From Pseudomonas brassicacearum (GTDB lineage: Bacteria > Pseudomonadota > Gammaproteobacteria > Pseudomonadales > Pseudomonadaceae), in the NCBI RefSeq assembly GCF_000585995.1, contig NZ_CP007410.1:3251430-3315429 (forward strand): a stretch of DNA of 64,000 nucleotides, read 5' to 3'. The notes beneath the pieces were generated by a model that saw nothing but the letters and a program-made list of their open reading frames with translations, had not been told where the DNA came from and searched no databases. The position numbers were made by a program, and so were the translations under genes. This document shows, one piece after another, positions 43,403 to 63,973 of the stretch (positions are counted from its first letter, which is position 1; the number at the start of each line of letters is the position of its first letter).

Positions 43403-44344
43403 ATGACCAATTTCGACGCTGCCGCAGGCATCAGCGTGACGGAGCTCAACACCTTGTTGGGCGAGTATTACCAGAACGCCCCCAGCACTAATGACCCATT
43501 CAAGGGCAGCCTGCCCAAAACCCTGCCAGACCTCGGAGCAGTGACGCTGACTTGGGATGTCGGTGCTGCGCCTAGCCTTGCTTTCGGTCCTCCCTCCCCA
43601 GCTATCTGGAATGCCGCGCTTGCGCCGAACGGCGAAACCAATGGCGCCCAGAGCATCCCTTTGCCCAGTTTGCCAATGATCCAACTCACCGTGCCGATGC
43701 TGACGGCCAGCTACACGCTGGGTAGTGCGCCCGCGGTAGGCGGTACCGCCCCGAGCGTAGTGGTCTACGCCACGCTCACCTTTACGCCGGGAACACTGGC
43801 ACTCGACTTGGTGGCAGTGTCATTGGACGAGAGCAAATTCTCCGCGTGGGACCAAGCCATATTCAACCTGATGCTGTTGCCGCAGATATTCACCTCTGCT
43901 AATCAGATGCTGGCCCTCGTGCACCTGCCCAACCTCGATTGGAACGGTGTGACACTCAACCCTGTACAGCTGCAACTGACTGCAAGCTATTTGCTCGGTG
44001 CGACGACGCTGACCACCAACACCAATGCGCTGGATATCGACGGAGTAACCTGGCCCACCGATCCGGTGTTCGTGATCGCCAGCAATGCGCTGATCAACAC
44101 GGCAATGGCTGTTTTCTTGAAGCCTTACCAAGGGTATCCGTTCTCCGACAGCGGCGACTTCAAAAAACTGGCCGATTGGAGCTACAACGGCTCGATCTCC
44201 TCGCTCTCGGCCACAGTCAAGCAGGTGGCCCCCTTGACCATCAATGCACAGTTGAGCGCTTCGCTCAATGCGCAGGCCACCCTTACTGCGGCGGGCATGG
44301 CCCTGGCGGCGGCAGGTTGTGCCCTCGGTGCGGCCCTGCTGTAA
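43403..44344 (+). CDS. TULIP-like beta-rich protein 1
   Basis: A 313-residue protein, first of a ten-gene operon. It has no signal peptide. The N-terminus has a helix (VTELNTLLGEYYQN) followed by long alternating beta-strands (LTWDVGAAPSLAFGPPS, IQLTVPMLTASYTL, VVYATLTFTPGTLALDLV), two amphipathic helices in the middle, and an Ala-rich hydrophobic tail (LTAAGMALAAAGCALGAALL). The alternation of strands and amphipathic helices is like TULIP lipid-binding proteins such as Clostridium P47. The family assignment is by eye and unproven. Confidence 0.6.
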   Translation: MTNFDAAAGISVTELNTLLGEYYQNAPSTNDPFKGSLPKTLPDLGAVTLTWDVGAAPSLAFGPPSPAIWNAALAPNGETNGAQSIPLPSLPMIQLTVPMLTASYTLGSAPAVGGTAPSVVVYATLTFTPGTLALDLVAVSLDESKFSAWDQAIFNLMLLPQIFTSANQMLALVHLPNLDWNGVTLNPVQLQLTASYLLGATTLTTNTNALDIDGVTWPTDPVFVIASNALINTAMAVFLKPYQGYPFSDSGDFKKLADWSYNGSISSLSATVKQVAPLTINAQLSASLNAQATLTAAGMALAAAGCALGAALL

Positions 44345-44373
44345 CCCTCAAATTCCTTGCCGGAGCAACGCCC

Positions 44374-44769
44374 ATGTCGAGCATGTTTGATTACGATGTT
44401 TCCATCAGTCCTTCGCCCGCCGAAATCGATCTGACCGTGGCAGTCGACGGCGTCGCTATCAGCGCGACGATATCGTCGGTGCCTTCGCTGACGTTTAAAT
44501 TGACGCCGACTGGAAACCTGGCCCAGAAGATTCTGTCCGCGGTTGCCTATCCCATTGCGACCCTCATCGCCGCAGAGGTCAAGGACAAACCCAAGGACGC
44601 GTTGCAAGGCAAAGTCGAGTCCATTGGCTCTGTGCCCAACTACGATACCAATGGTATCCGCATCGCCCCCAGCGCACTGACGTTGGGTAGCGTCAACATC
44701 GGTGATAGCACGATGTTGAAAATCGTCGCGACGCTGGCGATCACCACTCCCCCCTCTACCAGCGTCTGA
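44374..44769 (+). CDS. Small beta-rich protein of the TULIP-like operon
   Basis: A 131-residue protein starting at an ATG 29 bases behind the previous stop. It reads as a beta-hairpin unit (DYDVSISPSPAEIDLTVAVD, TFKLTPTGNLAQKI), a hydrophobic helix (LSAVAYPIATLIAAEV) and further strands (LKIVATLAITTPP). It looks like a single short half of the TULIP fold. In size it compares with OrfX1 beside the longer OrfX2/OrfX3/P47 proteins of botulinum clusters, but no sequence match is claimed. Confidence 0.6.
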   Translation: MSSMFDYDVSISPSPAEIDLTVAVDGVAISATISSVPSLTFKLTPTGNLAQKILSAVAYPIATLIAAEVKDKPKDALQGKVESIGSVPNYDTNGIRIAPSALTLGSVNIGDSTMLKIVATLAITTPPSTSV

Positions 44770-44791
44770 TCTGCCTACGAGAGCGCATCGC

Positions 44792-46108
44792 ATGCCTACT
44801 ATCGACGACTTCCTGCCGAAATTGACGGCTGCCTCCGGCCCAGTCTCCTTGGCCGCCACCCTGCCCCGGCAATTTTCGGTATCGGCTTGTGGCCCCTATC
44901 CATTGGCGAGCCACGTGGACATTCCCAGTAATTCCAACGGTGGCGAATTACTGCTGGGATTGAACGACATCTCGGTGTCGCCAGTGACGTTGTTATCCAT
45001 CGTTACCGACCATGATCCCCGCCGTATCGTGGTGACCCTGGCGCCGATGCAACTGAACGGAACCTACGACCTGTTTGGCCTGGAAAGTGCGAAGGTGCAA
45101 TTGGATACCGGTGGATTGATGGCGCCGCTGGCAAGTTTTGCCGTGGGTGCGAGTACTGTTGATGATTCCGATCCACCGACTATCACCGAGAAACAGTATG
45201 ACCAGCTGCAGCAAGCCAACGATCAGCGTACCCAGTTGAATCAGACTGCAAATGGCCGCTCTCTGCTGGATACGTTCAACCAGCATAATGATGCCTATAC
45301 CGATGTTTTCAATAACAATTCGCAGTTGCGCACGTCCTGGGCAAAGGGTGGTGCCATTGCAGAGATGTTCGATTACACGTCGCAAGCGCTGGCTACATCG
45401 GGTATGCCGGTCAATCCGCAGGACAAGCTATTTGGTACCCAGCAGTTGTCCTACAATATGCACGCGTTCTCGCAGAAAATTCATCTTTATTACGCCTGTC
45501 TAAAACCCTACCCCGATGCCGCGGTGGCCGCGTTGAGCTTTCAGGCACAAGTTGCGACCAACACCCAAAACACGCAGCAGACGGTGGTGCCAATGACTGC
45601 CGATTCTGTCTACAACACCGTCAACACAGCCCCCCCCGCGAATCAGGCAGCGCTCCAGCTGCAGATCCAAAGCCTGCAGGAGACGTTCGCGCGAATCGCC
45701 GACAATACCCATGACGACACGGATCTGGATCTATGCGTCCAGCACGGCTTCGTCATGGACCCCGACACCATAGTGCGTGTGCAAGCCATCTATGCCGAGT
45801 CATTGCGTTTGCACGATCCCAAGCGCCGCTTGCCTCTGCATAGTGGACCATTCTCCAGCTCTCTCGCCGAAAGCCACTTCGTCTTCGCCCTCAGCGAGCA
45901 GCCCGATGGCGCACTGACCCTCAAGTTGCAACGCAGCAGTTTGAGCGTGCCGGCACTGGACCTTGACAGCGCGCAATGGCAGGGCCAGGCCGGTGAAATT
46001 GGACGCTCGCGCCTGGGTAGCGCCAACTTCATCCGAGGCATCCTCGAAGACCGCATTGCCAGCCAACTGACTCGCGTACTGCGAACACTGGCCAGCCAGG
46101 AGGCATGA
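44792..46108 (+). CDS. Unknown protein of the TULIP-like operon
   Basis: A 438-residue protein without a recognised family or signal peptide. The first 120 residues are beta-rich (GELLLGLNDISVSPVTLL, RRIVVTLAPMQLNGTYDL). The middle, about residues 130-300, is helical and Asn/Gln-rich (YDQLQQANDQRTQLNQ, ALQLQIQSLQETFARI). The end is again beta plus helix (LTLKLQRSSLSVPALDL, then RGILEDRIASQLTRVL). The stop overlaps the prenyl synthase start, so translation is coupled. Confidence 0.65.
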   Translation: MPTIDDFLPKLTAASGPVSLAATLPRQFSVSACGPYPLASHVDIPSNSNGGELLLGLNDISVSPVTLLSIVTDHDPRRIVVTLAPMQLNGTYDLFGLESAKVQLDTGGLMAPLASFAVGASTVDDSDPPTITEKQYDQLQQANDQRTQLNQTANGRSLLDTFNQHNDAYTDVFNNNSQLRTSWAKGGAIAEMFDYTSQALATSGMPVNPQDKLFGTQQLSYNMHAFSQKIHLYYACLKPYPDAAVAALSFQAQVATNTQNTQQTVVPMTADSVYNTVNTAPPANQAALQLQIQSLQETFARIADNTHDDTDLDLCVQHGFVMDPDTIVRVQAIYAESLRLHDPKRRLPLHSGPFSSSLAESHFVFALSEQPDGALTLKLQRSSLSVPALDLDSAQWQGQAGEIGRSRLGSANFIRGILEDRIASQLTRVLRTLASQEA

Positions 46109-47172
46109 TGTCGGCAAGCAATTCCATTGCCGCTGTCATCGCGCAGCAGCCGATCGCATCGTCGTCATCCGTGTACGCGCGCATCAGCGAAGAACTGCTC
46201 GCCGAAGACCTCGTGCGTTTCCGGCAGGAAGTGGAGCTGGCGTTGCAACCACAGGCGCCCTACCTCACCGACGTGGAACGGCAGATGTTTGCCGGCGGTA
46301 AAAAGATACGTCCCTTGGTCATGCTCCTGTCGGCGCGGCTAATCGCGCAGGATGGGCCTCTGTCCGACAAGGTCTACAAAGGCGCGGCATCGCTGGAGAT
46401 GCTGCATGTGGCCACCTTGATTCATGACGACATCGTCGATGAGGCTCAGCTGCGACGCGGACTGCCATCGGTGTCGGCGGCTCGCGGCAGCAAAACCGCG
46501 CTGCTGATCGGTGATCTGCAATTCGTACAGGCGCTTCGCGGGTTCGCCACCGCCGTGGATACCGAGCGCGACATGACCTTGGTGCGGTTGGTGCTGGATA
46601 CCGCGTTCGATATCTGCCGAGGGGAGTTGGACGAATTGGACCGGACCTTGCCCGAGGATCACGATGCACGCCTGGCGCGCTACTACCAGACCATCGACCG
46701 CAAGACCGCAGTCTTGTTTCGGTTGGCCTGCCAGGGGGGTATCGATCTGGCCGGTGGGCGTAGCCGTGATGCCCGCCGCGGTGGCTTCTTCGGGCGCGCC
46801 TTGGGTCGTGCGTTCCAGATCATGGACGACGTGCTCGATGTGGTGGAGTACGAAAGTTCGGCGGGCAAGCAGTCAGGTATCGACCTGTTACTGGGTCGAC
46901 TGTCGCTGCCGCTGATCTATGCGATGGAAACGCTCGGCCCGACACATGCAATCAGCCAATCACTGCGCGAAGGCACGCCATTGGCGGGTCATCGTTTGGG
47001 CGATGCATTGGACGACTTGCGTGATTGTGGCTGTATCGACAAGGCCTACGCGGCTGCCCGGCGCGAAGCCTTGCAGGCGCTGTTCTATCTTGAGCCATTT
47101 CCTCCAGGCCGCTATCGCGATGCCCTGGAGGAGCTGACCCTGCACGTCATTGACCGCCCCCTGAACGGCTGA
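46105..47172 (+). CDS. Polyprenyl diphosphate synthase
   Basis: A 355-residue trans-isoprenyl diphosphate synthase. All hallmark motifs are present: GGKKIRPLVMLLSA, the first Asp-rich motif HDDIVDEAQLRRG, the second IMDDVLDVV, and GIDLLLGRLSLPLI. It should be catalytically active and build a prenyl chain from IPP; the chain length cannot be read with confidence. It begins inside the stop of the preceding unknown gene. No ubiquinone or carotenoid gene is nearby, so its product is probably used by this operon, perhaps as the ligand of the TULIP-like proteins. Confidence 0.92.
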   Translation: MMSASNSIAAVIAQQPIASSSSVYARISEELLAEDLVRFRQEVELALQPQAPYLTDVERQMFAGGKKIRPLVMLLSARLIAQDGPLSDKVYKGAASLEMLHVATLIHDDIVDEAQLRRGLPSVSAARGSKTALLIGDLQFVQALRGFATAVDTERDMTLVRLVLDTAFDICRGELDELDRTLPEDHDARLARYYQTIDRKTAVLFRLACQGGIDLAGGRSRDARRGGFFGRALGRAFQIMDDVLDVVEYESSAGKQSGIDLLLGRLSLPLIYAMETLGPTHAISQSLREGTPLAGHRLGDALDDLRDCGCIDKAYAAARREALQALFYLEPFPPGRYRDALEELTLHVIDRPLNG

Positions 47173-47194
47173 CCTCGCACCTGACGGAGCCCCC

Positions 47195-48829
47195 ATGAGC
47201 ACCTTGATGAGTTTTTTTCTCGACACGCTGCAACCATGCGTCAACGACCCGAACAACGCCAAGCTGTGGCTGCCCGGACAACTGGTGCAGATGAAGGGAG
47301 GCGATGGCAATCCGGTCCTGCCGGTACACGCCGACCAGCAGGACCTGGGCTACCTGACCGGCTCCAACGGCGACTATCTCGCCGAGCAATTTGCCGAAAA
47401 CTGGTCCATCGTCAACCAAGAGGACGCCGTACCCGATCCTAAAAAACCAGATCCGCACCTGAAGCTGTCCGCAGTCCTGGTGGACGGTCTGCAAAACCTC
47501 TTCGTCAACCCAGCGTCCTCCACAATCACGGGCCAAGGCTACTCCATCACCCTGCCACTGCTGTTCAATTACTATAACGGAGCCTCAAGGCAGACGGACT
47601 TGCCGCCGCTTACGATGTCCGGCAACTATCACATCGACCAGTCCCTCCAGATCGGGGACGCACCCAACACTTCGACCACTGACATCGTCGGCAGCGGTGC
47701 ATTCACCGTGGTGTTCAGCGAATGCATGTTGACGGCGAAGGTCGGCGTGACCATCGAAGGCGCTGGCGCAACGCGCTCGCTGGCCTTCGCAGTGAGCGAA
47801 CTACTAGTGACCGGCGTGCAGGACAAACCGGTGAGTTTGAACTTCAAGCAGCTCACTCTGGATGGCGACTTTGTGGGCAAAGATCAGCTAATTGAATCGA
47901 TCAGGGAGGCACTAAACAGCGCCGAAGGCCAGGCAGCCATGGTCGGCGCGTTAAGCAGCATGTTGAATTTGCCCTCCAACCTGCAAAGCGTCAACGACAT
48001 GCTCGGCACACAGGCCGAGAACCTCATGTCCAGTGTGTTCGGGCCGCTCCCCACCCAAGGCCTGCCCAATGACGACAGTGGCCAGGACGCGGCCTCGCCG
48101 GTGGACCTGTTCCTGTTCGATCGCACGCGCGTGGCGTTGAACGAAGCGAACAGTAACTGGTATCTCCCGTGGCAACTCGCGTGCTCGTCGGATCCGGTGC
48201 TGGAGCCTTATTCCAATCCTCAAATCGATGTACCCGATCAGACGTACGGGGGGCTGAAGTACACCAACATTCAGTTGACCAAACTGACGCTTACGGGCGG
48301 TTCCAACGCTCAAGCACCGTTGTCGGCGGTCACGCTCAGCACTCCGCGGATTGCCGCCACGCTCAATTTCGGCGCTCTGGCGGCGGGGCCGGTACGGCAG
48401 CTCGACCGCCCGGGCCCGACGGTCAGCCAGCCCGTTCCACCGGCGCCGCCGCTCACCGTGAACGCCGGGTTCTCGCTGACCCAGCAAGGCCTCAAGCCAG
48501 TCCTACTGCAGGGCACCCTGACCGCGACTGTGGTCAACCTGCAAAGCTCGCTGACGATCACCCCATCAGGCGCCGATGTGAATGCCTTGACGCTCACGAT
48601 CAGCGATATCAGCGCAAACCTGGACAGTGCCCAGATAGGTGTGTCGGTGACGCTGACGCCTCACGATGTCTCACTGGAGCAGCTCATCGGCCATTTGTTC
48701 CAGAAACCCGAAGTCCAGTCACAGATCGCCAAAGCGCTGAACAATGCGCTCAGCGCCCAGGCGCCGCAGCTATCGGAAGAGTTCAGCCAGATCGCGCGTA
48801 AAGCCATCCTCAACCAACTCAACAGTTAG
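47195..48829 (+). CDS. Large TULIP-like beta-rich protein 2
   Basis: A 544-residue protein with no signal peptide and no known family. Repeated strand-rich blocks are IVGSGAFTVVFSECMLTAKVGVT (quoted from the middle), SLNFKQLTLDGDF, VTLSTPRIAATLNF and LTLTISDISANLDSAQIGVSV. Each half ends in a long helix (ESIREALNSAEGQAAMVGAL, then AKALNNALSAQAPQLSEEF), the layout of two TULIP modules in a row. The C-terminal helix closely resembles that of the next protein (LNGQLSNPDLLASLSQVAT), which suggests common origin. Confidence 0.62.
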   Translation: MSTLMSFFLDTLQPCVNDPNNAKLWLPGQLVQMKGGDGNPVLPVHADQQDLGYLTGSNGDYLAEQFAENWSIVNQEDAVPDPKKPDPHLKLSAVLVDGLQNLFVNPASSTITGQGYSITLPLLFNYYNGASRQTDLPPLTMSGNYHIDQSLQIGDAPNTSTTDIVGSGAFTVVFSECMLTAKVGVTIEGAGATRSLAFAVSELLVTGVQDKPVSLNFKQLTLDGDFVGKDQLIESIREALNSAEGQAAMVGALSSMLNLPSNLQSVNDMLGTQAENLMSSVFGPLPTQGLPNDDSGQDAASPVDLFLFDRTRVALNEANSNWYLPWQLACSSDPVLEPYSNPQIDVPDQTYGGLKYTNIQLTKLTLTGGSNAQAPLSAVTLSTPRIAATLNFGALAAGPVRQLDRPGPTVSQPVPPAPPLTVNAGFSLTQQGLKPVLLQGTLTATVVNLQSSLTITPSGADVNALTLTISDISANLDSAQIGVSVTLTPHDVSLEQLIGHLFQKPEVQSQIAKALNNALSAQAPQLSEEFSQIARKAILNQLNS

Positions 48830-48838
48830 GAGCACACC

Positions 48839-49549
48839 ATGTCCGACAGTCAACTCGTCCAATTGCTGGAAAACATGCTATTGACGCCCGCCTCCGACTT
48901 CTACCTGTCCACGATTCTCTACAACCCGGACGGTAGCGCCCTGGACCCACTGACCATCGCCGAAGTGGACCTGGGCTCATTCACGATCGAAAAGATTCCG
49001 ATCGACATCGTTATCAAGAAACTGCATATCCTCGGACTGAGCAACAGCCAGGTGAAGCTCGACAATGGAACCGACCCCGAGATCGTCGTCGACGGCAGCA
49101 CCGTGACTTTCCATGGCAAACAGCCCAATACACAGGATGGGTACCAACGCCCCCCCTCCGTACCCAACCAGATCCAGGCCAGTGGCGAATTGCACGTCAA
49201 CCTGAACCACGTCGACATGCCACCGGGTACTTTCAGCCTGACCATCAACCACGTCGATGACCTGACCGGGGTCTTCAGTGCTACCGAGGCGGTGGATGGA
49301 CAGCTCGACACCGCAGTCGTCAACTTCAGCGCGTTGTCGGTCAATCCGGTCGTCGGCAATGGCAACATAAAGATCGATATCGATCTGGCGACCGTCTTTA
49401 AAGCCACCATCAACCAACTGCTCAATGAGGACGCCAACCAGACGAAGCTCATCACCGCGCTCAATGGCCAGCTCTCCAACCCCGATCTGCTCGCCAGCCT
49501 GTCGCAGGTCGCCACCAGGGAAGCCCGCAAGGCCTTGGCCACTATCTGA
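48839..49549 (+). CDS. Single-module TULIP-like protein
   Basis: A 236-residue protein ten bases behind the last. The stretch FTIEKIPIDIVIKKLHILGL, followed by SNSQVKLD, is very like the GLSNF-type strand of arthropod TULIP proteins (takeout/juvenile hormone binding), and further strands (GELHVNLNHVDMPPGTFSLT) and a C-terminal amphipathic helix follow. This is the clearest TULIP-like sequence of the set, although my comparison is by eye. No signal peptide is present, so it is either cytoplasmic or exported by an unusual route. Confidence 0.6.
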   Translation: MSDSQLVQLLENMLLTPASDFYLSTILYNPDGSALDPLTIAEVDLGSFTIEKIPIDIVIKKLHILGLSNSQVKLDNGTDPEIVVDGSTVTFHGKQPNTQDGYQRPPSVPNQIQASGELHVNLNHVDMPPGTFSLTINHVDDLTGVFSATEAVDGQLDTAVVNFSALSVNPVVGNGNIKIDIDLATVFKATINQLLNEDANQTKLITALNGQLSNPDLLASLSQVATREARKALATI

Positions 49550-49569
49550 TTGAAAAAGGAGTTTCGACC

Positions 49570-50685
49570 ATGTCCACCGACTTCATCGCAGGCCTTTCGC
49601 AATCGTTATTGAACAACGCCAGTGAATCCATTTTTCCCACCATAGCGCCCAAGCTGGGCGACACCGCAAACATCCCCGAAGCGAACGCGAGTTTGACCTG
49701 GAGCGTATCTGCACCACCGACATTCAGTTTGGCCGCCAGCGGTAGCGGTCAAACTTTCATGGTCAGCATGCCGGTGGAGCTGTCCGTGACCGTGACCGGC
49801 GGGGACCCCACCAGCAGCACAGTCGGTGCCAATGCCAGTGCACGGGCAACAGTAGATGGCAACGGTGTGGTGCGGTTGTCAGTGACCGATATCAACTTTG
49901 TCACCGATGATCCGTTTGTGAACGAAATCCTGGACGCCTTGAAGAGTGATATCGCCAGCAGGGTGAACAGCCTGATATCCGCCATCGCCATACCGCTGGG
50001 GCCCGTCAACGGTATCACCTTTGCCGGATACGCCCTGTTGATCGATGGCGGTAACGCCTATGCGGCCGGCGGATTGTTCTCGCCGGTGGCGATCAGCCAA
50101 AAGCAACCGCCATCCAATGGCGGCTTCAACCTGGTACTCACCGAGCCGCTGATCCAACAGGTCGTCGCCAATCTGTGGTGGAGCACAGTACAGAAGACCT
50201 ATTCGGCCAGCGGTGCCGTCGTGCATCTCAACAGTTACAACGCTTCGGTCAACAACGGTAACCTGACGCTGACGCTCAACTTGAGCGGTAGCTACAGCTT
50301 GGGCCCGGCAGACTGGGATATTTCCATCAGCCCAGTTACCGCGACGCTGCAGGTGGTGGTGGATGCACAACGTAACATCCGTATAAGCGGCGGCAGTGTT
50401 TCTCGCCCATCGGTCAACATCACGCCCTCCAATTTCTGGGCGTGGATGGCGACGTTGGGCGGTGGTGTGATCTCCTCCATTACCCTGGCGATCCTCAACG
50501 ATGTGGTAGGAGGCCAGATCCAGGAAACGATCCAAGGTCAGTTGGCCCAGAGCCTGCTGCAAATCCCGGATCTGAGCGGCAATTTCGAAGGTTTCACTCT
50601 GCAGGTGACGCCTCAGAACCTGAACATCACAGGCGTGGGCAATCAGATCCTGCTGACAGGTACCGCCAGCGTCACCGCCAGCTAA
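49570..50685 (+). CDS. TULIP-like beta-rich protein 3
   Basis: A 371-residue protein with an N-terminal amphipathic helix (GLSQSLLNNASESIFPTI), then alternating strands (ASLTWSVSAPPTFSLAAS, VSMPVELSVTVTGG), a middle helix pair (EILDALKSDIASRVNSLISA), a second strand-rich half (LTLTLNLSGSYSLGPADW) and final helix plus strands. The pattern strand-helix-strand repeated twice is what a two-barrel TULIP would give. The strand LTWSVSAPPTFSL resembles LTWDVGAAPSLAF of the first protein. Confidence 0.62.
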   Translation: MSTDFIAGLSQSLLNNASESIFPTIAPKLGDTANIPEANASLTWSVSAPPTFSLAASGSGQTFMVSMPVELSVTVTGGDPTSSTVGANASARATVDGNGVVRLSVTDINFVTDDPFVNEILDALKSDIASRVNSLISAIAIPLGPVNGITFAGYALLIDGGNAYAAGGLFSPVAISQKQPPSNGGFNLVLTEPLIQQVVANLWWSTVQKTYSASGAVVHLNSYNASVNNGNLTLTLNLSGSYSLGPADWDISISPVTATLQVVVDAQRNIRISGGSVSRPSVNITPSNFWAWMATLGGGVISSITLAILNDVVGGQIQETIQGQLAQSLLQIPDLSGNFEGFTLQVTPQNLNITGVGNQILLTGTASVTAS

Positions 50686-50689
50686 ACGA

Positions 50690-50725
50690 TATCCCGGCGG
50701 AACCAGCGTTGACACCGCCGGGATA
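50690..50725 (+). terminator. Strong hairpin inside the TULIP-like operon
   Basis: TATCCCGGCGG at 50690-50700 pairs perfectly with CCGCCGGGATA at 50715-50725 around a 14-base loop, just behind the stop of the third TULIP-like gene. No T-run follows. It may protect the upstream message or lower expression of the downstream genes. Confidence 0.62.
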
Positions 50726-50756
50726 GCGAAATCGCCCTCACATTGAGTGAACGCCC

Positions 50757-51698
50757 ATGCCGGAAATCGCCGATTACATGTCATGGAATATTGAAAGCCT
50801 GTCCTCGAAGAAATGCGCCAAGGACGTCTTTCGCAACGTCAACGTCGCGGCCTGGATCGCCGTGCTGATCGACGAGATGCAGGCCAGCGTCATCGGCGTC
50901 ATGGAAGTGACGCTCGGCACAGGTGAGCAAGCGGTGCAAGTGCTGGTCCAGGCCATCAATGATCGCAAGAAGCTTGTAGGCTCAGGCAGCAAGTGGAAAT
51001 ACGAGGTGTCGCAGCGAAATATTGAAGTCGCCCATACGTTCGCCCGGCGCGCCGACAAGTACGCGTTGCTTTGGGACGATGCAAACGTCAGCGTCAGCAA
51101 CATGGCCGTCGCCACCAGCACCAAGGTGATCTTCGCTGACCGCAATCCACTGTTCTGGAATATGCAGGCCAAAACCGCTGGCAAGCCCAAGGAACTCAAC
51201 TGCCTGCTCTGGCATGCCCCCCAGCCCAAGTATCACAAGAAAGATGCGACCATCCAGTTGTTGGCAGATCTAACCGAAGAGATCGAGATCAACACGGGCA
51301 ACACGACCTTTTTGATCTCTGGCGATTTCAACTACAACACGGCCAATGCCGCTACCTATGCACCTCTGACCAGCCTGAAGTTCTCCGGTATATTCGACGG
51401 CGAAAAAACTACTCTTACCTCGTTGAAATCGTTCGTCAATGACATCGCCAATCGCGAGAAAATGATCCAGCAAGGCGATGTTGACGAGGCCTTTTTGGCA
51501 AGCGCCTACGACAACATATTCATCCGTGGCATTACCTCCAATTGGGAACTCAAGGTCTGCGTTCCCAACGTCGTCCTCCAGGAAATCATGGACAGCTTCA
51601 CCTTCATGATTGTCACCCGCATGCAGCTGCAACTGGCAATGAAGAATGCCAAGATCATCAGCGACCACATGCCTATCGTCATGACTCTCGAAGAATAA
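50757..51698 (+). CDS. Endonuclease/exonuclease/phosphatase-fold protein
   Basis: A 313-residue protein with the ordered active-site motifs of the EEP (DNase I-like) fold: SWNIESL (Asn), GVMEV (Glu), LLWHAPQP (His), SGDFNYN (Asp and Asn), AYDNIFIRG, and ISDHMPIVM (Asp-His). It should be a Mg2+-dependent phosphodiesterase of nucleic acid, phospholipid or inositol phosphates. No signal peptide is seen. In this operon a lipid-directed or toxin role is possible. A 71-base gap with a hairpin precedes it. Confidence 0.8.
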   Translation: MPEIADYMSWNIESLSSKKCAKDVFRNVNVAAWIAVLIDEMQASVIGVMEVTLGTGEQAVQVLVQAINDRKKLVGSGSKWKYEVSQRNIEVAHTFARRADKYALLWDDANVSVSNMAVATSTKVIFADRNPLFWNMQAKTAGKPKELNCLLWHAPQPKYHKKDATIQLLADLTEEIEINTGNTTFLISGDFNYNTANAATYAPLTSLKFSGIFDGEKTTLTSLKSFVNDIANREKMIQQGDVDEAFLASAYDNIFIRGITSNWELKVCVPNVVLQEIMDSFTFMIVTRMQLQLAMKNAKIISDHMPIVMTLEE

Positions 51699-51728
51699 CC
51701 CCAGCGAACTTCGCTCTCTGATGAAGAA

Positions 51729-54700
51729 ATGGCCATGGATATCCAAACGCTTCGCGAGAACCTCAAGATAGGGCTGGACGGGACGACAACCATCGTTGCC
51801 AGCACGGTGACCACGGCAAAATTCGCCGACTTTTACGGGCGCATTTTCGACAATAAACCTCTGACAATTTCCAATGCGAGCCCCGGTCCCGAAGACGGCG
51901 GCAATACGGTGCAGCGGGTCGGCACCGCATCGCTTTTTCGCCAAGTGGCTAACGCTCCCGTAACAGCCACTTTTGTGCTCGACCCGCAAAGCGGCGACGT
52001 CACTGTCCAGTTGGTGTTCACTTTGATTGGCACAGGACGAAACTGGAAATTTTCCGACAGTTTCCCGGATCTGCCCGTCAGCTTCGACTTCAGTTCCAGT
52101 GTCACCGCTCCCCAGACGTCGGCGCTGGACGATCTCACGCTGACCTCGGCATGGTTCTATGCACTGACCGATGCCACCGTCGTTGATATCGACTTGGGCT
52201 CCACCAAGGCGCCAGTGTCGCTGGACGCAGGGCTCGGTTTCGCCGGCATCGTTGAGCTTAGAGGCGTACTGCTGGCGCTGGAACATCTGCTGGACGTCAA
52301 CGACCGTTTCGCGATCGGCGGAAACATCGTCGAACCCTCCGTGCAGGTGTCGCCGCTGCGCGAGATCGTTAACAATTTCCCATGGAAAGAACAAAACTCG
52401 CCGCCGGGCATCAGCCTGTTCGTGGACCTGGGACTGGAAGTTTCCATTTCCGAAAAGCTTGCGCTTACCCAGACGATCTTCTCGGTCTACAGTCCTTTGA
52501 GCGCGAAATGGTGGATGGCCAACCCCAGCTATGAGCCATTCATGGCGATCAGTGGTGCGCTGACGATACCCAGTGCCGGCCTGACCGTTGAGCTGTCATC
52601 GAAGATTCCCAAAGGCACTCGCAAGCTGGTGATCACCGGAGAATTCAGCGGTTTCACCCTGAGCAATCTGGCGGACCTGCTGGACCTGGCAGGCACCTCG
52701 ACGCTAATCGACTACCTGCCGGGGCCACTGCAAGACGCCCTGCATGATGCCGGCAAGCTGCAGTTGCTGGACGCGGCGATCGCGCTGACGGGGTCGGGCA
52801 CCGGCCTTAGCGTCGACTATGTCTACCTGACCGTTGGTATCCCGAACGCTCAATGGAAGCTGCTGGGCGATGAGTTTCTGCTCGAATCCATATCCGTTGA
52901 GTTCCATGTCACCCTGCCTTTTATCAAGCCTGCACCGGGTGCTTCGATAAATGCGTTGTTCCTGATCGGTAATGCCGCCCAAGTAAACGTTAGCGCCGGC
53001 TATCCTGATTTCTTCATTGCGGGCGAACTGGAGGACGCGGTTACGCTGCCGCTGCAGGCGCTGGTCACGCGGTACTTGCCGTCGATCCAGCCACCGGCCG
53101 ATCTGACGATCGACATGCTGTCGGTCAACATCGATACCCAGGCCGGCTACAACTTTTACACCGAAATGGCCGACTCCCCAGGGTGGGTCATTCCACTGGG
53201 CCCGCACAACCTGGCCATCGAGGACATTCAATTCGGCTTGTCAAAAGGGCTCGGGGCGAACGCTAAGACCTCGGCTCAGTTTGCCGGCGGGCTGGTCTTC
53301 GACGACCGCCTGACGCTGGCCATGTCCTACGATCCCACCCAGGGGGTTGCGCTACGTGGCGCCCTGCCCCAAGTCACGTTGAACGGGCTGATCGGCTGGT
53401 TATGCAACGCTAAAGATGTACTGCCAAGCGGACTCGGCGACTTGACGTTTACTGACTCGACGCTGTTGATCACCAAGAACCAAGATCAATTCAAGCTTTC
53501 GTTCGGAACCCAGGTCGCCAACGCCGGCTCGCTGGCCTTCGAACTCCTGGACCAACAAGGTACGTGGGGCTTTGCTCTCGGTCTGGACTTGTCCCTGTGC
53601 AAGCTGTCGGCGCTGCCAGGACTTTCGTCCATCCAGACATTCCTGGATATCTTTCCTATTGCCGGCGAGGAGGTGGTGATCGTCTCCACCCTGAAGAAGT
53701 CAGATTTCACCTTCCCGGCTTTAGACCTATTTCAAAATCCGCAGATCAAGTCAAAACAAATCACCATTCCAGCCTGGTCAGGTGGACTGCAGGAAGGGTT
53801 CTACTTTTACGCACAGACCCAATTGAAGCAAAACAGGATCCTGCAAAACCTGGCCACAATGCTGTCCATTTCGCCAGACACAAACCTGAATGCAGGGATC
53901 TTCATTGGCACCGACGCCGGCACCCAGGCACGGCTCTTCGCAAATATCAGCACGGTGATCAATCGTTCGGTGACACTGAGTGGTGCCTTGGGCGTACAGA
54001 TACAGGCCGAACAGGTTGAGTTCTATCTGACTGCCACCGCTCGCACCACCATCGAGTCGCAACCGATTCGCTTCGATGTCAGCTTGGCAGTAGTGGAAAA
54101 CGGTGCATTCGTATCGGGCGACATGGTGGTTGAAAACGGGAATGGCACCCTCGATTTCTCGGTATTCAAACTGAAGAGCTTGGCATTCGAGCTTGGCATT
54201 TCCTTCGAGGGAGAACCTTCGATCGGATTTGCCGCCGAACTGGATATCGCCGACATCGATAGCGCCTTGGCGGTGTTCATCGACACCGTGCAACCTAGCC
54301 AGTCAATGGTGGTCGGCGCCATCAGCGACCTCAGCCTGGCCAAGGTCTTTGACGAGTTGACCGGTGCTACTGCCTCGGACTTGCCCGGATTCCTGCGCGA
54401 TGTACTCACCCAGATAGCCGTGGGCCGATTGCACAGCTTCGACAGTGACTGGCAGGCCTGTCACGATGCCCTGAACCATTACGACCTGGCCAAAATTCGC
54501 GAGATGTTCGCCGCCGGCGGAGTTAACCTGCCCGCCGATAGCGGGCAGGTCCAGTTGATTGTGAACACGCCGGACCAGACTTGGTACCTGCTCGACCTTT
54601 CCACGATGTACCACTACGAAATACTGCGTAACGGGCAGCGGATCTCGGTGTCGCTGGAGGCCCAACTGTATGTTGTACCTCAGCAAGTCAGCATCGCGAC

Positions 54701-55643
54701 ACTGACGTTCCCACAGGGTTTCCACCTCTTTGCAGATATCCAGTTTCTGTGGATCCGAGAACAGATCAAGGTCGAGGTCATGCCCCAAAAAGGCATCGCC
54801 TTCAATATTGAGATGGCGCCAATCGTCATCGGCAACGACAAGCTGTTCAAGCTCACCGGCGCCCAGGGCTCGGGCGGCCCTAGTGTGCTGCTGTGCACCT
54901 TCTCGGACGCCACCAACCCGGAACCGCACTATCGAACGCCCGCATTCATGATCTCAGGCGAGGCTTATCTATTGGGTATCGGCCCGCAAATCGATATCGA
55001 CGTTCGGGCCGACCATTGTCATTTTGAACTCAAGGACACCACCTTTGGAGGCTCGACCTTCAACCTCCTGGCCGATATCGACGGTATCGACTCAATCAAC
55101 GCACAGGGTTCGGCCAGCGTCGGCATCAACGAGTCCATCGATCTGGGGCCGCTCGGCACGCTGACCATCGACGACACCCTCAATGCCGACCTGGCCTTCG
55201 GCAGCACAAAGCAGGGAATATTTGCCAACGCGTCGTTCAGCTTCACCTTGGCCAGCAGCACTCATGACATCGCCCGCTTCGACCTGGATATCAACGTCGG
55301 TCCTCTGGACAATCTCCCGGGCATCCTGCTGGACAAGATCAAACAGTTCTTTGTCGAATTGTTCCAGGACGCGAAGAAATGGTTGGAATATGTCTATCAG
55401 GGCATCCTGAAGGGAATTGAAGAGATCGAGCAAATCGGCAAGGTCCTCAGAGATACCTTCAAACTTGCGTGGAAGCAGGCCGCCCTCTTTCTGCAAGCCG
55501 TTGGTTATGCGGCCGAGGACGTGGAGAAGATGCTGATTGCAGTCTTCAACAAAACCCTCGAAGAGGCGCAAGAAATCGTCGACTTCCTTTACAACAGCAT
55601 CAAGAACTGCGCGATGAAGAGCGGCCTGCTGGCCGCAGCATGA
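51729..55643 (+). CDS. Giant 1304-residue beta-rich protein with amphipathic tail
   Basis: The largest gene of the window. The protein has no signal peptide and no family I recognise. Repeated units combine strands and short helices (for example ISGALTIPSAGLTVELSSKI, LSNLADLLDLAGTSTLIDYL, IDMLSVNIDTQAGYNFYTEM), with at least four similar domains spread over residues 100-1130. The last 130 residues are a long helix set rich in Lys, Glu and aromatics (KIKQFFVELFQDAKKWLEYV, then ILKGIEEIEQIGKVLRDTF) that could lie on or insert into a membrane. It resembles large fungal and bacterial orphan proteins in style. A lipid-handling or pore-forming role is conceivable but unproven. Confidence 0.7.
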   Translation: MAMDIQTLRENLKIGLDGTTTIVASTVTTAKFADFYGRIFDNKPLTISNASPGPEDGGNTVQRVGTASLFRQVANAPVTATFVLDPQSGDVTVQLVFTLIGTGRNWKFSDSFPDLPVSFDFSSSVTAPQTSALDDLTLTSAWFYALTDATVVDIDLGSTKAPVSLDAGLGFAGIVELRGVLLALEHLLDVNDRFAIGGNIVEPSVQVSPLREIVNNFPWKEQNSPPGISLFVDLGLEVSISEKLALTQTIFSVYSPLSAKWWMANPSYEPFMAISGALTIPSAGLTVELSSKIPKGTRKLVITGEFSGFTLSNLADLLDLAGTSTLIDYLPGPLQDALHDAGKLQLLDAAIALTGSGTGLSVDYVYLTVGIPNAQWKLLGDEFLLESISVEFHVTLPFIKPAPGASINALFLIGNAAQVNVSAGYPDFFIAGELEDAVTLPLQALVTRYLPSIQPPADLTIDMLSVNIDTQAGYNFYTEMADSPGWVIPLGPHNLAIEDIQFGLSKGLGANAKTSAQFAGGLVFDDRLTLAMSYDPTQGVALRGALPQVTLNGLIGWLCNAKDVLPSGLGDLTFTDSTLLITKNQDQFKLSFGTQVANAGSLAFELLDQQGTWGFALGLDLSLCKLSALPGLSSIQTFLDIFPIAGEEVVIVSTLKKSDFTFPALDLFQNPQIKSKQITIPAWSGGLQEGFYFYAQTQLKQNRILQNLATMLSISPDTNLNAGIFIGTDAGTQARLFANISTVINRSVTLSGALGVQIQAEQVEFYLTATARTTIESQPIRFDVSLAVVENGAFVSGDMVVENGNGTLDFSVFKLKSLAFELGISFEGEPSIGFAAELDIADIDSALAVFIDTVQPSQSMVVGAISDLSLAKVFDELTGATASDLPGFLRDVLTQIAVGRLHSFDSDWQACHDALNHYDLAKIREMFAAGGVNLPADSGQVQLIVNTPDQTWYLLDLSTMYHYEILRNGQRISVSLEAQLYVVPQQVSIATLTFPQGFHLFADIQFLWIREQIKVEVMPQKGIAFNIEMAPIVIGNDKLFKLTGAQGSGGPSVLLCTFSDATNPEPHYRTPAFMISGEAYLLGIGPQIDIDVRADHCHFELKDTTFGGSTFNLLADIDGIDSINAQGSASVGINESIDLGPLGTLTIDDTLNADLAFGSTKQGIFANASFSFTLASSTHDIARFDLDINVGPLDNLPGILLDKIKQFFVELFQDAKKWLEYVYQGILKGIEEIEQIGKVLRDTFKLAWKQAALFLQAVGYAAEDVEKMLIAVFNKTLEEAQEIVDFLYNSIKNCAMKSGLLAAA

Positions 55644-55695
55644 TAGAGCGGTCATGTTTCGATTCTGCACCAGCGACTGAGAGGCCTGCAGCGAC

Positions 55696-56568
55696 ATGAA
55701 ATCAGACAATGTATTCATCTTTAATATCGAGTCGGACGCACATGGAGCAGTTGCCAATAGCGCAAACGCTCTTTTCGTAAAACACACCAAAACCGACCGT
55801 ATAACAAAGCGAGTCTTTTTCGTAGAAGTTGATAAGGCGCGCGCAGCAAAAATAACAAAGATCTGGATGAATGAACACTTAATAGCAGAAGCAGACCGAA
55901 AGCCCATAGATTTAAATCAAGATATTAAAACGCTACTGGAAACCCATCTGCCCGCCGGCGAATCCTCTGTCGGAGCCTATCTGGTTGCACATGCACTCGC
56001 CGGGTATTTTGCTGGCGAAGACCCGCTAATATGGGGTGACTTCCTAGGGAGCCCTCCTTGGCCTGTTTTTTCAAAAATCGTCTTTGACGCCTGTAAGGCC
56101 GCTAACCCCACACCTATTTTCACAGAAGATTACTTCGAGGATCTTTTGCAGAAGCCCGAGCTGGTTCCTCTCATTCAGAAAAACGACAAGGCAGAAGACT
56201 CCTTGAGCTTTATTTCCATGTTCCTGTACTTCTATAAAGAGCGCGTTGAAAAGAGACCCGACAAGAAAGAAGCGTTCAAAATCAGGGTCGCGGGATGGCC
56301 AAACTTCATAACGGTCGCCAGCGAGAGCTTGCAGAAGCCAATAAAAGGATACAACTTTGGCCCGGCTCATACCGATAAGGAAAGAGGCGTCTATGGCAGA
56401 AAAGTAACAGCCTTCGAGAATCCTAACAAAGCCAGCAATACCAAAGAACTTTATGGCCTGGCAAAAGACAATCGACACCTGAAGAAAAAAATAATGTACG
56501 CAGCGAAGGCAAGTGGTCAGTCAACGTTCTTTGAAATCACCCAAGATGAAGACTGGGTTGACAGATAG
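55696..56568 (+). CDS. Unknown AT-richer protein at the operon end
   Basis: A 290-residue protein of unknown family (MKSDNVFIFNIESDAHGAV, then YLVAHALAGYFAGEDPLIWG, and a Lys-rich C-terminus NRHLKKKIMYAAKASGQ). Base composition is clearly AT-richer and codon use less typical than in the nine genes before it, pointing to a separate origin. It starts 52 bases behind the giant gene on the same strand. It could be an immunity or modulator protein for the operon, but no evidence shows this. Confidence 0.65.
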   Translation: MKSDNVFIFNIESDAHGAVANSANALFVKHTKTDRITKRVFFVEVDKARAAKITKIWMNEHLIAEADRKPIDLNQDIKTLLETHLPAGESSVGAYLVAHALAGYFAGEDPLIWGDFLGSPPWPVFSKIVFDACKAANPTPIFTEDYFEDLLQKPELVPLIQKNDKAEDSLSFISMFLYFYKERVEKRPDKKEAFKIRVAGWPNFITVASESLQKPIKGYNFGPAHTDKERGVYGRKVTAFENPNKASNTKELYGLAKDNRHLKKKIMYAAKASGQSTFFEITQDEDWVDR

Positions 56569-61685: not shown

Positions 61686-62198
61686 TTACATCGCGGGAGT
61701 TTGCTGTAAAAGCGTCAGATCGATGTCCCCAAACCGCAGAACCCTGCCGCCCTGCTCGCTGGCCAGTTTGTGTGCCGCCGCCTCCTCGGAAAATGAGGCC
61801 AGGACAACGCCCATGGAACCTTTGAGCCGTGTTCCAACCACATAGTAGGCTGTGCGGGCATCCATTAGATGATGGTCGTCGGGTTTCTCCCAGGCACTTT
61901 TACCCATGTCGTGCACATACAATTTCGCCTCAGTGAGGTGATTTTCAGGCTGGAGCCACCACCCGAGCATTTCTGCGGTGGAACAGAACTTCTTGACCGT
62001 GCCTTTTTCCACGATCTCGCCTTTGGGCCCCGGAAAGTCGGCGATGACCATGCCGCAGACATGACATTCGTCACTCTGATGGAAGGCCACTGGCGCAAGG
62101 GTCGGCTTGTCTTCCGCGCGATCATTACAAGCCGCCAATCCCAAACCGATCATGATAACGACCAGGGCACGGGCCCCGGTCAGGTACAGAGTGTTCAT
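61686..62198 (-). CDS. nosL: NosL copper chaperone lipoprotein
   Basis: A 170-residue lipoprotein with lipobox LAAC and a Cys-Met-type copper site (ECHVCGMVI), followed by KKFCSTAEMLGWW, as in NosL. It delivers Cu(I) for the copper centres of nitrous oxide reductase in the periplasm. It is the last gene of the nos operon, 24 bases behind nosY. Confidence 0.93.
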   Translation of the reverse strand: MNTLYLTGARALVVIMIGLGLAACNDRAEDKPTLAPVAFHQSDECHVCGMVIADFPGPKGEIVEKGTVKKFCSTAEMLGWWLQPENHLTEAKLYVHDMGKSAWEKPDDHHLMDARTAYYVVGTRLKGSMGVVLASFSEEAAAHKLASEQGGRVLRFGDIDLTLLQQTPAM

Positions 62199-62222
62199 CG
62201 CATTTGTCCCCTGGGGAATGAA

Positions 62223-63053
62223 TCAAGTCGGCCGATGGCGAAACAGCCAATGAGCCAGCAGCAGCGAAACACCGACCCAGAGCAGCAGGCAGAGCCAGAG
62301 CATTGAAGCCGACACCGGTAAATCACTGCTCAATGCCATGAGGCCGATGGCATTTGCGCTGCCCTCGAAACCCGAAAGGTTGATCAGGCGATAAACGTCG
62401 GTCGGGTTAAGCAACAGTAACCACGGCAAGAGATCCGGGTTGAACCGGCCTTTGCTGAGCACCAGCAACGCCAGGAGTGCCAGATCGAACACCAATACGA
62501 AGAGGAACCACACACCCAGCGCCATCCCGGCAGCGCTGGATTTTTCGCTGGCCTTGCAGCTCAAGACATAAGCCAGTGCGAGAAATACCCACCCCAGTAG
62601 CGTGGAAGACACCATGAAACGACCGAACGCCCAAAGCAACAGCCCCAACTCGACGTCGTCGACCAGCAGGGCGATGGCCACGGCGGCGCAGCCAAACCCG
62701 ATCAAGGTGGCCAATGCCAGAATCAGGCCGTGACCGACAAATTTGCCCAACAGAATTTGTCCGCGACCCAGGGGGTAGGTCAGCAATAGCATCAGTGTGC
62801 CACCCTCCTCCTCCCCGACAATGGCATCGTAGGCCAGCAACAGGGCAATCAGCGGCATCAGGAACGTCGCCAGGCTGGCGAGGCTGGCGATGGTTGCTGG
62901 AATCGAGGTAAAGCCCACTTGCCCGGAGGCCGCCGCACCAAGCCAGGCGATCCCTACTGCCAGGACGGCGAACAGCAGACTGATTGCCAGCAGCCAGCGG
63001 TTACGTAGACCGTCGCTGAATTCCTTGGCGGCGATATTCCAGATCTGCGTCAT
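62223..63053 (-). CDS. nosY: NosY ABC transporter permease
   Basis: A 276-residue permease with about six helices ([20 protein letters not shown] at the start, then [17 protein letters not shown]). NosY pairs with NosF as the ABC transporter that works with NosD in assembling the CuZ centre. It overlaps nosF by four bases. Confidence 0.94.
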
Positions 63054-63973
63054 GAATGAATGCCTTCAGGGTCAGTGACCGCATGGCTCATGTAGTAGCC
63101 ATAAAGGTCTTCAAGGGAGGGTTGCTGAATCTCGATATCCTGCGGTCGATCCTCGTGAAACAACTGGCGCAACAGATCGACTTTGTGGCCATTGACCGCC
63201 ATCACCTCAATCCCGTTGCCCCCCAACGCCGTGGCGTTGTGTCCAGCCGCATTCCAACGCTGCAACCACTGCTCGCGTTGGGACAGTCCGCTGACCCGAA
63301 TGCGCGCCGGCAAGTCGGCCTCTTCGCGCAGGCTCGACAGGCTACCGATCGCCCGCAAGCAGCCATTGACCAGGATGGCCGCACGGTTGATATGCACTTC
63401 GACTCCCGCCAACACATGGGAACACAGAATGATGCTGGCGCCTTGTTGGCGCAGACGGTCGATCAACAGGTAAAGCTCTTGGGTGGCGATTGGGTCGAGA
63501 CCGACCGTGGGCTCGTCCAACAGCAGCAGGCGTGGTGCACCAAGCACTGCCTGAGCCAACCCCAGACGCTGGCGCATGCCTTTTGAGTAGGTTTTCACAC
63601 GCCGGTCCGCGGCGCCGGCAAGTCCCACCTGTTCGAGCAGATCGTCCACTTGCGTCAGCGCCGCCCCCTTGAGGCGAGCAAAATAGCGCAGCGTTTCGCG
63701 GCCGCTGAGTTGCGGATAGAACGTGACGTTTTCCGGTAGGTAACCGAGCTGGCGACGCACCTCGGTTTGTGCTGGGCGGCAACCGAGCACATGCACTTGA
63801 CCGGCACTGGCCTTGAGCAGTCCCAGGATCAGCTTCATCACCGTGGTCTTGCCCGCCCCATTGTGGCCGAACAACCCTAGCACCTCGCCTTCCGCCAAGC
63901 TCAAGGTCAAGTCACGCAACACGGTCATGCTGCCGTAACGCTGGCTGACGCCTTCAATATCGACCGCGTTCAT
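63050..63973 (-). CDS. nosF: NosF ABC transporter ATPase
   Basis: A 307-residue ATPase with Walker A GHNGAGKT, signature [14 protein letters not shown], Walker [13 protein letters not shown] and H-loop ILCSHV. Its neighbours nosY and nosL on one side and the nosD end on the other fix the assignment. The ATG overlaps the upstream stop (ATGA). Confidence 0.95.

Follow-up and report, generated by a model that had tools for sequence, protein, structure and literature searches.

An operon that may pair cytoplasmic TULIP lipid carriers with a dedicated polyprenyl diphosphate synthase in Pseudomonas brassicacearum

In a stretch of 64,000 nucleotides from Pseudomonas brassicacearum (contig NZ_CP007410.1, positions 3,251,430 to 3,315,429; hereafter the window), nine genes, A to I, form a compact operon on the + strand (43403-55643), with spacings of -4 to 71 bp between genes (Table 1). 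We give an even chance to the reading that they constitute a dedicated polyprenyl-lipid system: D would make the lipid, the cytoplasmic TULIP proteins E and F would carry it, and a giant protein, I, would form with the hydrolase H an exchangeable module. D would build a polyprenyl diphosphate, probably a long-chain one, by condensing isopentenyl units, and E and F would hold this lipid, or a derivative of it, soluble in their tubular cavities; C, whose gene overlaps that of D, may pass on or modify the product, and A, B and G would be, like C, regular partners with folds unassigned. The second module, found in six of the nine core loci (adjoining, or on a matching contig), usually consists of a hydrolase, an EEP enzyme here, followed by the giant, which may act as a carrier or scaffold, associating with lipid, joining it to the enzyme and taking both to a membrane or target. 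Because the genes recur in the same order in distant bacteria, where A, B, C, E and F are about 24-50% identical to the window copies, the operon is more than a chance assembly.

The synthase and the TULIP proteins

Among the ten products of the region (A to I, plus a tenth open reading frame (ORF), J), D is the only one to exceed a Pfam cut-off (PF00348, 181.5 bits against 27, E 2.1e-53). It carries the motifs GGKKIRP, DDIVD, MDDVLD and GKxxGxDL, and the earlier proposal, made from the letters of the DNA, of a polyprenyl diphosphate synthase with both Asp-rich motifs (DDIVD and MDDVLD) is confirmed. The product is probably a long-chain polyprenyl diphosphate; an Ala at position -5 suggests the same, under a rule that we take to apply here. 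The eight operon copies compared (all but that of genome G680) are 49-97% identical to one another, with 51-56% between the proteobacterial copies and that of Streptantibioticus, and 29-33% identical to the IspB-like synthase of the window genome, in which D is one of three PF00348 genes. The pairwise identities of D, E and C correlate at 0.97-0.99 (21 pairs from seven of the nine core loci, leaving out G680, where D lies in two frames, and Streptantibioticus, where the E matches do). Since the copies are so alike, the identities of the three proteins correlate and the genome has two other PF00348 genes, D looks like a dedicated, co-inherited enzyme.

Structures were predicted for E and for residues 1-1200 of I. 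In the model of E (mbadfe2d0f047; pLDDT 82.6, pTM 0.74) a long antiparallel sheet curves around a long helix, with a tubular cavity, which is the arrangement that defines a TULIP. All 16 PDB chains found by Foldseek at E<=0.001 are TULIPs, among them CETP, BPI, LBP, juvenile-hormone- and carotene-binding proteins and Der p 7 fusions; the fold search proposed earlier thus turned out as expected for this protein. Profile comparison reveals an internal repeat in E, which is predicted to be a double (tandem) TULIP protein of the cytoplasm. F is homologous to its second half, residues 311-539 (hhalign 97.7-98.3%, P 1.6e-12 to 2.4e-14, from an alignment leaving out locus L037, where F is fused to a G-like part, and L047), and would by this homology be a single TULIP domain; a profile search of the PDB with F gave no match. 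A protein database holds 12 E homologues, listed with no gene context. Isoprenoids are the cargo of the juvenile-hormone-binding proteins (JHBP) and of the locust carotene-binding protein, and because of these ligands a functional link between D and E is plausible. The notion that the operon makes and carries a prenyl lipid is therefore partly supported, by the predicted fold of E and by an intact, seemingly dedicated and co-inherited D, while D's product as the TULIP ligand stays a conjecture.

The sequence-only reading had counted six or more long TULIP-like products. E, by predicted fold, and F, by homology, can be kept in that class, but F (236 aa) is not long, nor is B (131 aa). Comparison of A, B, C and G with E or F by hhalign was unconvincing (best B-E, 16.6%). 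Weak Pfam matches to TULIP families were obtained for F (JHBP, 0.043) and B (SMP_C2CD2L, 0.12), and none at all at E<=1 for A, C, E, G and I.

Table 1. Position and assignment of the ten ORFs of the region
Gene	Length	Position	Strand	Assignment
A	313 aa	43403..44344	+	core gene, fold unassigned; profile-related to N-terminal part of G
B	131 aa	44374..44769	+	core gene; profile-related to C-terminal part of G
C	438 aa	44792..46108	+	core gene; strongly conserved polar middle region
D	355 aa	46105..47172	+	trans-polyprenyl diphosphate synthase; PF00348, catalytic motifs intact
E	544 aa	47195..48829	+	tandem TULIP lipid-binding protein (predicted), BPI/CETP-like layout
F	236 aa	48839..49549	+	single TULIP domain, by homology to E residues 311-539
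G	371 aa	49570..50685	+	resembles fusion of A-like and B-like parts
H	313 aa	50757..51698	+	EEP (DNase I-like) phosphodiesterase, MnuA-like; exchangeable partner of I
I	1304 aa	51729..55643	+	giant beta-rich protein, amphipathic strands; no known family
J	290 aa	55696..56568	+	AT-richer ORF; probably outside system

Distribution of the core and the giant-hydrolase module

E is present in five of 398 Pseudomonas genomes (G000, G137, G680, G729 and G776) and in one of 369 genomes of a class-wide sample, the window's own. Further E-bearing loci were found in Pseudomonas BCA17 (L004), a Cellvibrionales metagenome-assembled genome (MAG; L024), an alphaproteobacterial MAG (L047) and Streptantibioticus cattleyicolor pSCAT (L039); the same E match also occurs in a further Streptantibioticus record, which is not one of the nine loci examined. 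In all nine, D is directly 5′ of E and C is 5′ of D, so that the expected conservation of the synthase in homologous operons was found throughout. The order is A-B-C-D-E-F in G137, G680 (no B called) and G776 (F fused to a G-like part), and A to I in the window, G729 and BCA17. The Cellvibrionales locus reads A-A-B-B-C-D-E-F-nitrilase-like-I. At a contig end the alphaproteobacterium carries C-D-E-F-G-G; a second contig holds G-EEP-I, in which the frame of the giant is interrupted. In Streptantibioticus A and B match weakly and are followed by C (1.6e-57), D (55%), E and a 1204-aa giant-like protein; in pSCAT (L039:11088-16130) E, and possibly the A/B matches, span more than one frame, and sequencing error, decay and frameshifting are indistinguishable there. 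The cross-phylum copies suggest horizontal spread of the operon.

Two neighbourhoods may be mentioned here. Just upstream of the Cellvibrionales operon, L024:14384-18720 encodes a methyltransferase, a C70 cysteine protease resembling AvrRpt2 and a peptidase of the IMPa/M60 type. In G776 a gene with an S-type pyocin domain (PF06958, 9e-13; L037:17041-17598) is found upstream of the core genes.

H has the motifs WNIE, GDFN and SDH, which we take to be the EEP catalytic motifs, and the EEP-fold phosphodiesterase recognized by the sequence-only reading stands on these, with family scores below cut-off (PF03372, 17.3 bits against 24.5; NCBIfam MnuA, 9.6e-13, 48.8 against 185). H alone had no match in a profile search of the PDB. 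A copy 52% identical to H precedes the giant in an alphaproteobacterial MAG. The Herpetosiphon EEP copy passes the Pfam cut-off, with 34.7, and a Calothrix EEP-like protein lacks two of the three motifs (GDxN and SDH) and has no Pfam match. Of the 21 giants whose upstream side is visible, 12 have a hydrolase before them: in six cases an EEP protein, in four a non-specific nuclease of the DKGH type and in two a nitrilase-like enzyme. These three kinds are mutually unrelated; the EEP and nitrilase-like families also sit downstream in two of five truncated loci. In these counts L009/L025, L011/L022 and L002/L024 are each one locus, L006 may be the second piece of a giant starting in L062, and the upstream view of L020 is 400 bp. 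Pfam was run on two of the four Nitrospinaceae nucleases (those of L005), the L007 pair being assigned by homology. The nitrilase-like label of the Cellvibrionales enzymes is tentative: it comes from the motifs APEFYF and ICLDH/VCLDH, which we assume to be diagnostic, and searches gave no Pfam nitrilase match and no PDB match.

Giants are found in proteobacteria, Nitrospinaceae, Chloroflexota, Cyanobacteria, Bacteroidota and Actinomycetota, and three are plasmid-borne. In Pfam searches ten families were matched, each by one of 26 members, and sequence searches of the PDB gave nothing useful. The model of residues 1-1200 of I has a pTM of 0.45; no TULIP is among the 50 matches listed for it by either structure-search program, and profile comparison did not connect I with E or F. 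The apoB-100 beta-belt is among the closest known counterparts; kinship of the giant with apoB is kept for a less likely reading below, since a phage tail fibre scores alike and beta barrels give similar Z. Scans of viral contigs with E and I, bearing on a viral origin, found no relative, and the protein database gave eight I homologues with no gene context. As to the surroundings of giants, two Nitrospinaceae MAGs (L005, L007) hold two giant-nuclease pairs in tandem, with a gene of 256-261 aa between them that is 70% identical between the MAGs. Radical SAM proteins lie directly 3′ of giants in a Nitrospinaceae MAG (L007:13708-15744) and in a Bacillota MAG (L008:3160-5787). Behind a giant relative on a Hymenobacter tibetensis plasmid (L023:15734-23169) come a GH108 lysozyme-like gene and one encoding a SLOG/SLATT-domain protein.

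Giant and hydrolase most likely form an add-on that is exchangeable and perhaps effector-like. The strongest rival to a dedicated lipid system, in our opinion somewhat unlikely, extends this to effector or toxin delivery, functionally like that ascribed to OrfX/P47, in which the hydrolase is the payload, the giant its carrier, and TULIPs and prenyl lipid help it across the target membrane. The changing hydrolases on either side of the giants speak for it, as do the plasmid-borne giants, the protease, methyltransferase and peptidase genes next to the Cellvibrionales operon, the pyocin domain in G776, and the description of orfX-p47 clusters as toxin-gene-associated in the part of PMC7020563 available. 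However, nine of the 21 giants lack such a hydrolase upstream, the Calothrix protein lacks two of its three motifs, searches of the ten products (Pfam, NCBIfam, hydropathy) recognized neither an export signal nor an immunity gene nor a known toxin domain, P47 has no Pfam match here, PADLOC anti-phage defence models match none of the ten at E<=0.01, and nucleotides, lipids and phosphoinositides are equally possible substrates of the EEP enzyme. At the thresholds used in Pfam and NCBIfam, no toxin family was found among the ten products; I and C are without family, and H could be an effector.

An unlikely explanation is a housekeeping-like supply, where D supplies the side chain of a quinone or a polyprenyl carrier and the TULIPs merely keep it in solution inside the cell, with neither delivery nor particle. 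The core without giant or EEP in G137, G680 and G776 would suit it, as would the absence of a signal-peptide-like hydrophobic N-terminus from all ten products, which the sequence-only reading had noted for six or more of them (a crude test: 19-residue Kyte-Doolittle maximum 0.4-1.5 in the first 40 residues). Against it stand the patchy, cross-phylum distribution, with five of 398 Pseudomonas genomes, and the two other PF00348 synthases of the window genome. Still less credit goes to a bacterial counterpart of plasma lipoproteins, a soluble protein-lipid particle in which I would be an amphipathic beta-belt giant, loaded by the CETP/BPI-type TULIPs E and F with a polyprenyl lipid made for it by D, and bearing an exchangeable hydrolase.

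For the dedicated polyprenyl-lipid system itself, several points count on the other side. D's product could go elsewhere, the lipid itself and lipid binding by A, B, C, G and I are conjectural, and hydropathy reveals no secretion signal. The strand alternation of I is also present in E and common in soluble beta proteins. No giant match was obtained in the genomes of G137, G680 and G776, i.e. for three of the nine core loci, and an E match is absent from 15 of 19 giant-bearing genomes or records (two of them plasmid records only); core and giant modules are thus separable.

Partner genes and limits of the operon

Profile comparison relates A to G (HH probability 80%, pairwise P 1.5e-5 over 216 columns; 44% and 2.4e-4 for G against A) and B to G (61% in both directions, P 8e-5), and G looks like an A-like part fused to a B-like part. 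G is present in copies on the alphaproteobacterial contig L047, on which neither A nor B was found. A WD-40-type propeller was considered for A, from PDB profile matches to propeller designs (5e-4), and discarded: no stretch passes alone and the signal is probably compositional. In C, ten residues are invariant in nine of nine sequences (R146, N154, G155, H165, Y169, R180, W183, Y221, N222 and N260). Its 20 protein-database homologues are hypothetical where named and come with no gene context. This polar core, and the 4-bp overlap of C with D, would fit a scheme in which C (or H) attaches D's product to a protein or small molecule and the TULIPs carry the prenylated product; we hold it to be very unlikely, as C has no Pfam or NCBIfam family and no PDB sequence match better than E 0.075.

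The ten + strand ORFs extend over 43403-56568, with successive gaps of 29, 22, -4, 22, 9, 20, 71, 30 and 52 bp. For A the ORF list has a longer version from 43370, and the start at 43403, behind a GGAAGG seen by eye, is the best choice. A ten-gene operon had been claimed; the close packing on one strand is as described, but J, with a GC of 0.458 against 0.53-0.62 for A-I, and not found in L036 and L004 (tblastn at 1e-10), is for these reasons probably outside the system. J has no significant family match (Pfam, NCBIfam, PADLOC). The flanks of L036 are those of the window (OprD 97%, IorA 96%). In G017, a relative without the operon, the metallophosphatase-OprD pair is kept and IorA was not found within that 10-kb stretch, so that no clean insertion site could be shown; an ORF near its OprD gene (L054:1827-2723) weakly matches J (29% over residues 26-91, E 0.008). 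Farther along the window, on the - strand, an ORF at 61686-62198 resembles, by eye, a NosL-type protein on account of its CHVCGM motif; two further ORFs lie behind it, and the group (61686-63973) may be where a nos gene set ends.

Known systems and significance

E shares with the TULIP superfamily (BPI/LBP/CETP, JHBP/Takeout, SMP) its predicted fold and BPI/CETP-like two-domain layout, but it is bacterial, has no signal peptide that we could see, lies beside a prenyl synthase gene and is far below Pfam cut-offs in sequence similarity. D has the family (PF00348), both Asp-rich motifs and the Ala at -5 in common with IspB/HepT-type synthases, whereas it reads GxDLxxxR where the IspB-like enzyme of the window genome reads GxDLxxGK. 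The polyprenyl transferase cargo of Family 2 encapsulins (NF041169) likewise is a prenyl synthase beside possible compartment-forming structural proteins, but D scores 152.4 against a cut-off of 450, and Pfam and NCBIfam detect no encapsulin shell among the ten products. The OrfX1-3/P47 clusters, botulinum-type and other, resemble the operon by analogy, as groups of TULIP-like proteins to which an enzyme gene is linked in many loci; we know of no counterpart of the giant or of D in them. The PF06597 (P47) relationship suspected earlier was not found, none of the ten products matching it at E<=1. E is structurally nearer Der f 7/Takeout/LBP (VIA-align 2), and the word 'prenyl' does not appear in the main text of PMC7020563, as far as available. 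P47/OrfX is an analogue rather than an established relative.

The bacterial TULIPs known earlier were P47, OrfX2 and YceB, to which DUF4403, DUF2140 and DUF2993 were added (PMC6791001); the passages of that paper at hand do not mention a prenyl synthase beside them. The accessible part of PMC12419801 describes a Lipocone protein with a TULIP domain and, as a separate case, an operon of Lipocone and prenyltransferase genes, which is not the composition seen here. In the open-access literature we found no described bacterial system pairing TULIP carriers with a dedicated prenyl diphosphate synthase, which is weak evidence of absence. If E and F do carry D's product, this would be a bacterial TULIP whose lipid cargo can be named from gene linkage alone, and it would offer a testable hint as to what P47/OrfX binds. 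With its interchangeable hydrolases, the giant family is a second uncharacterised module.
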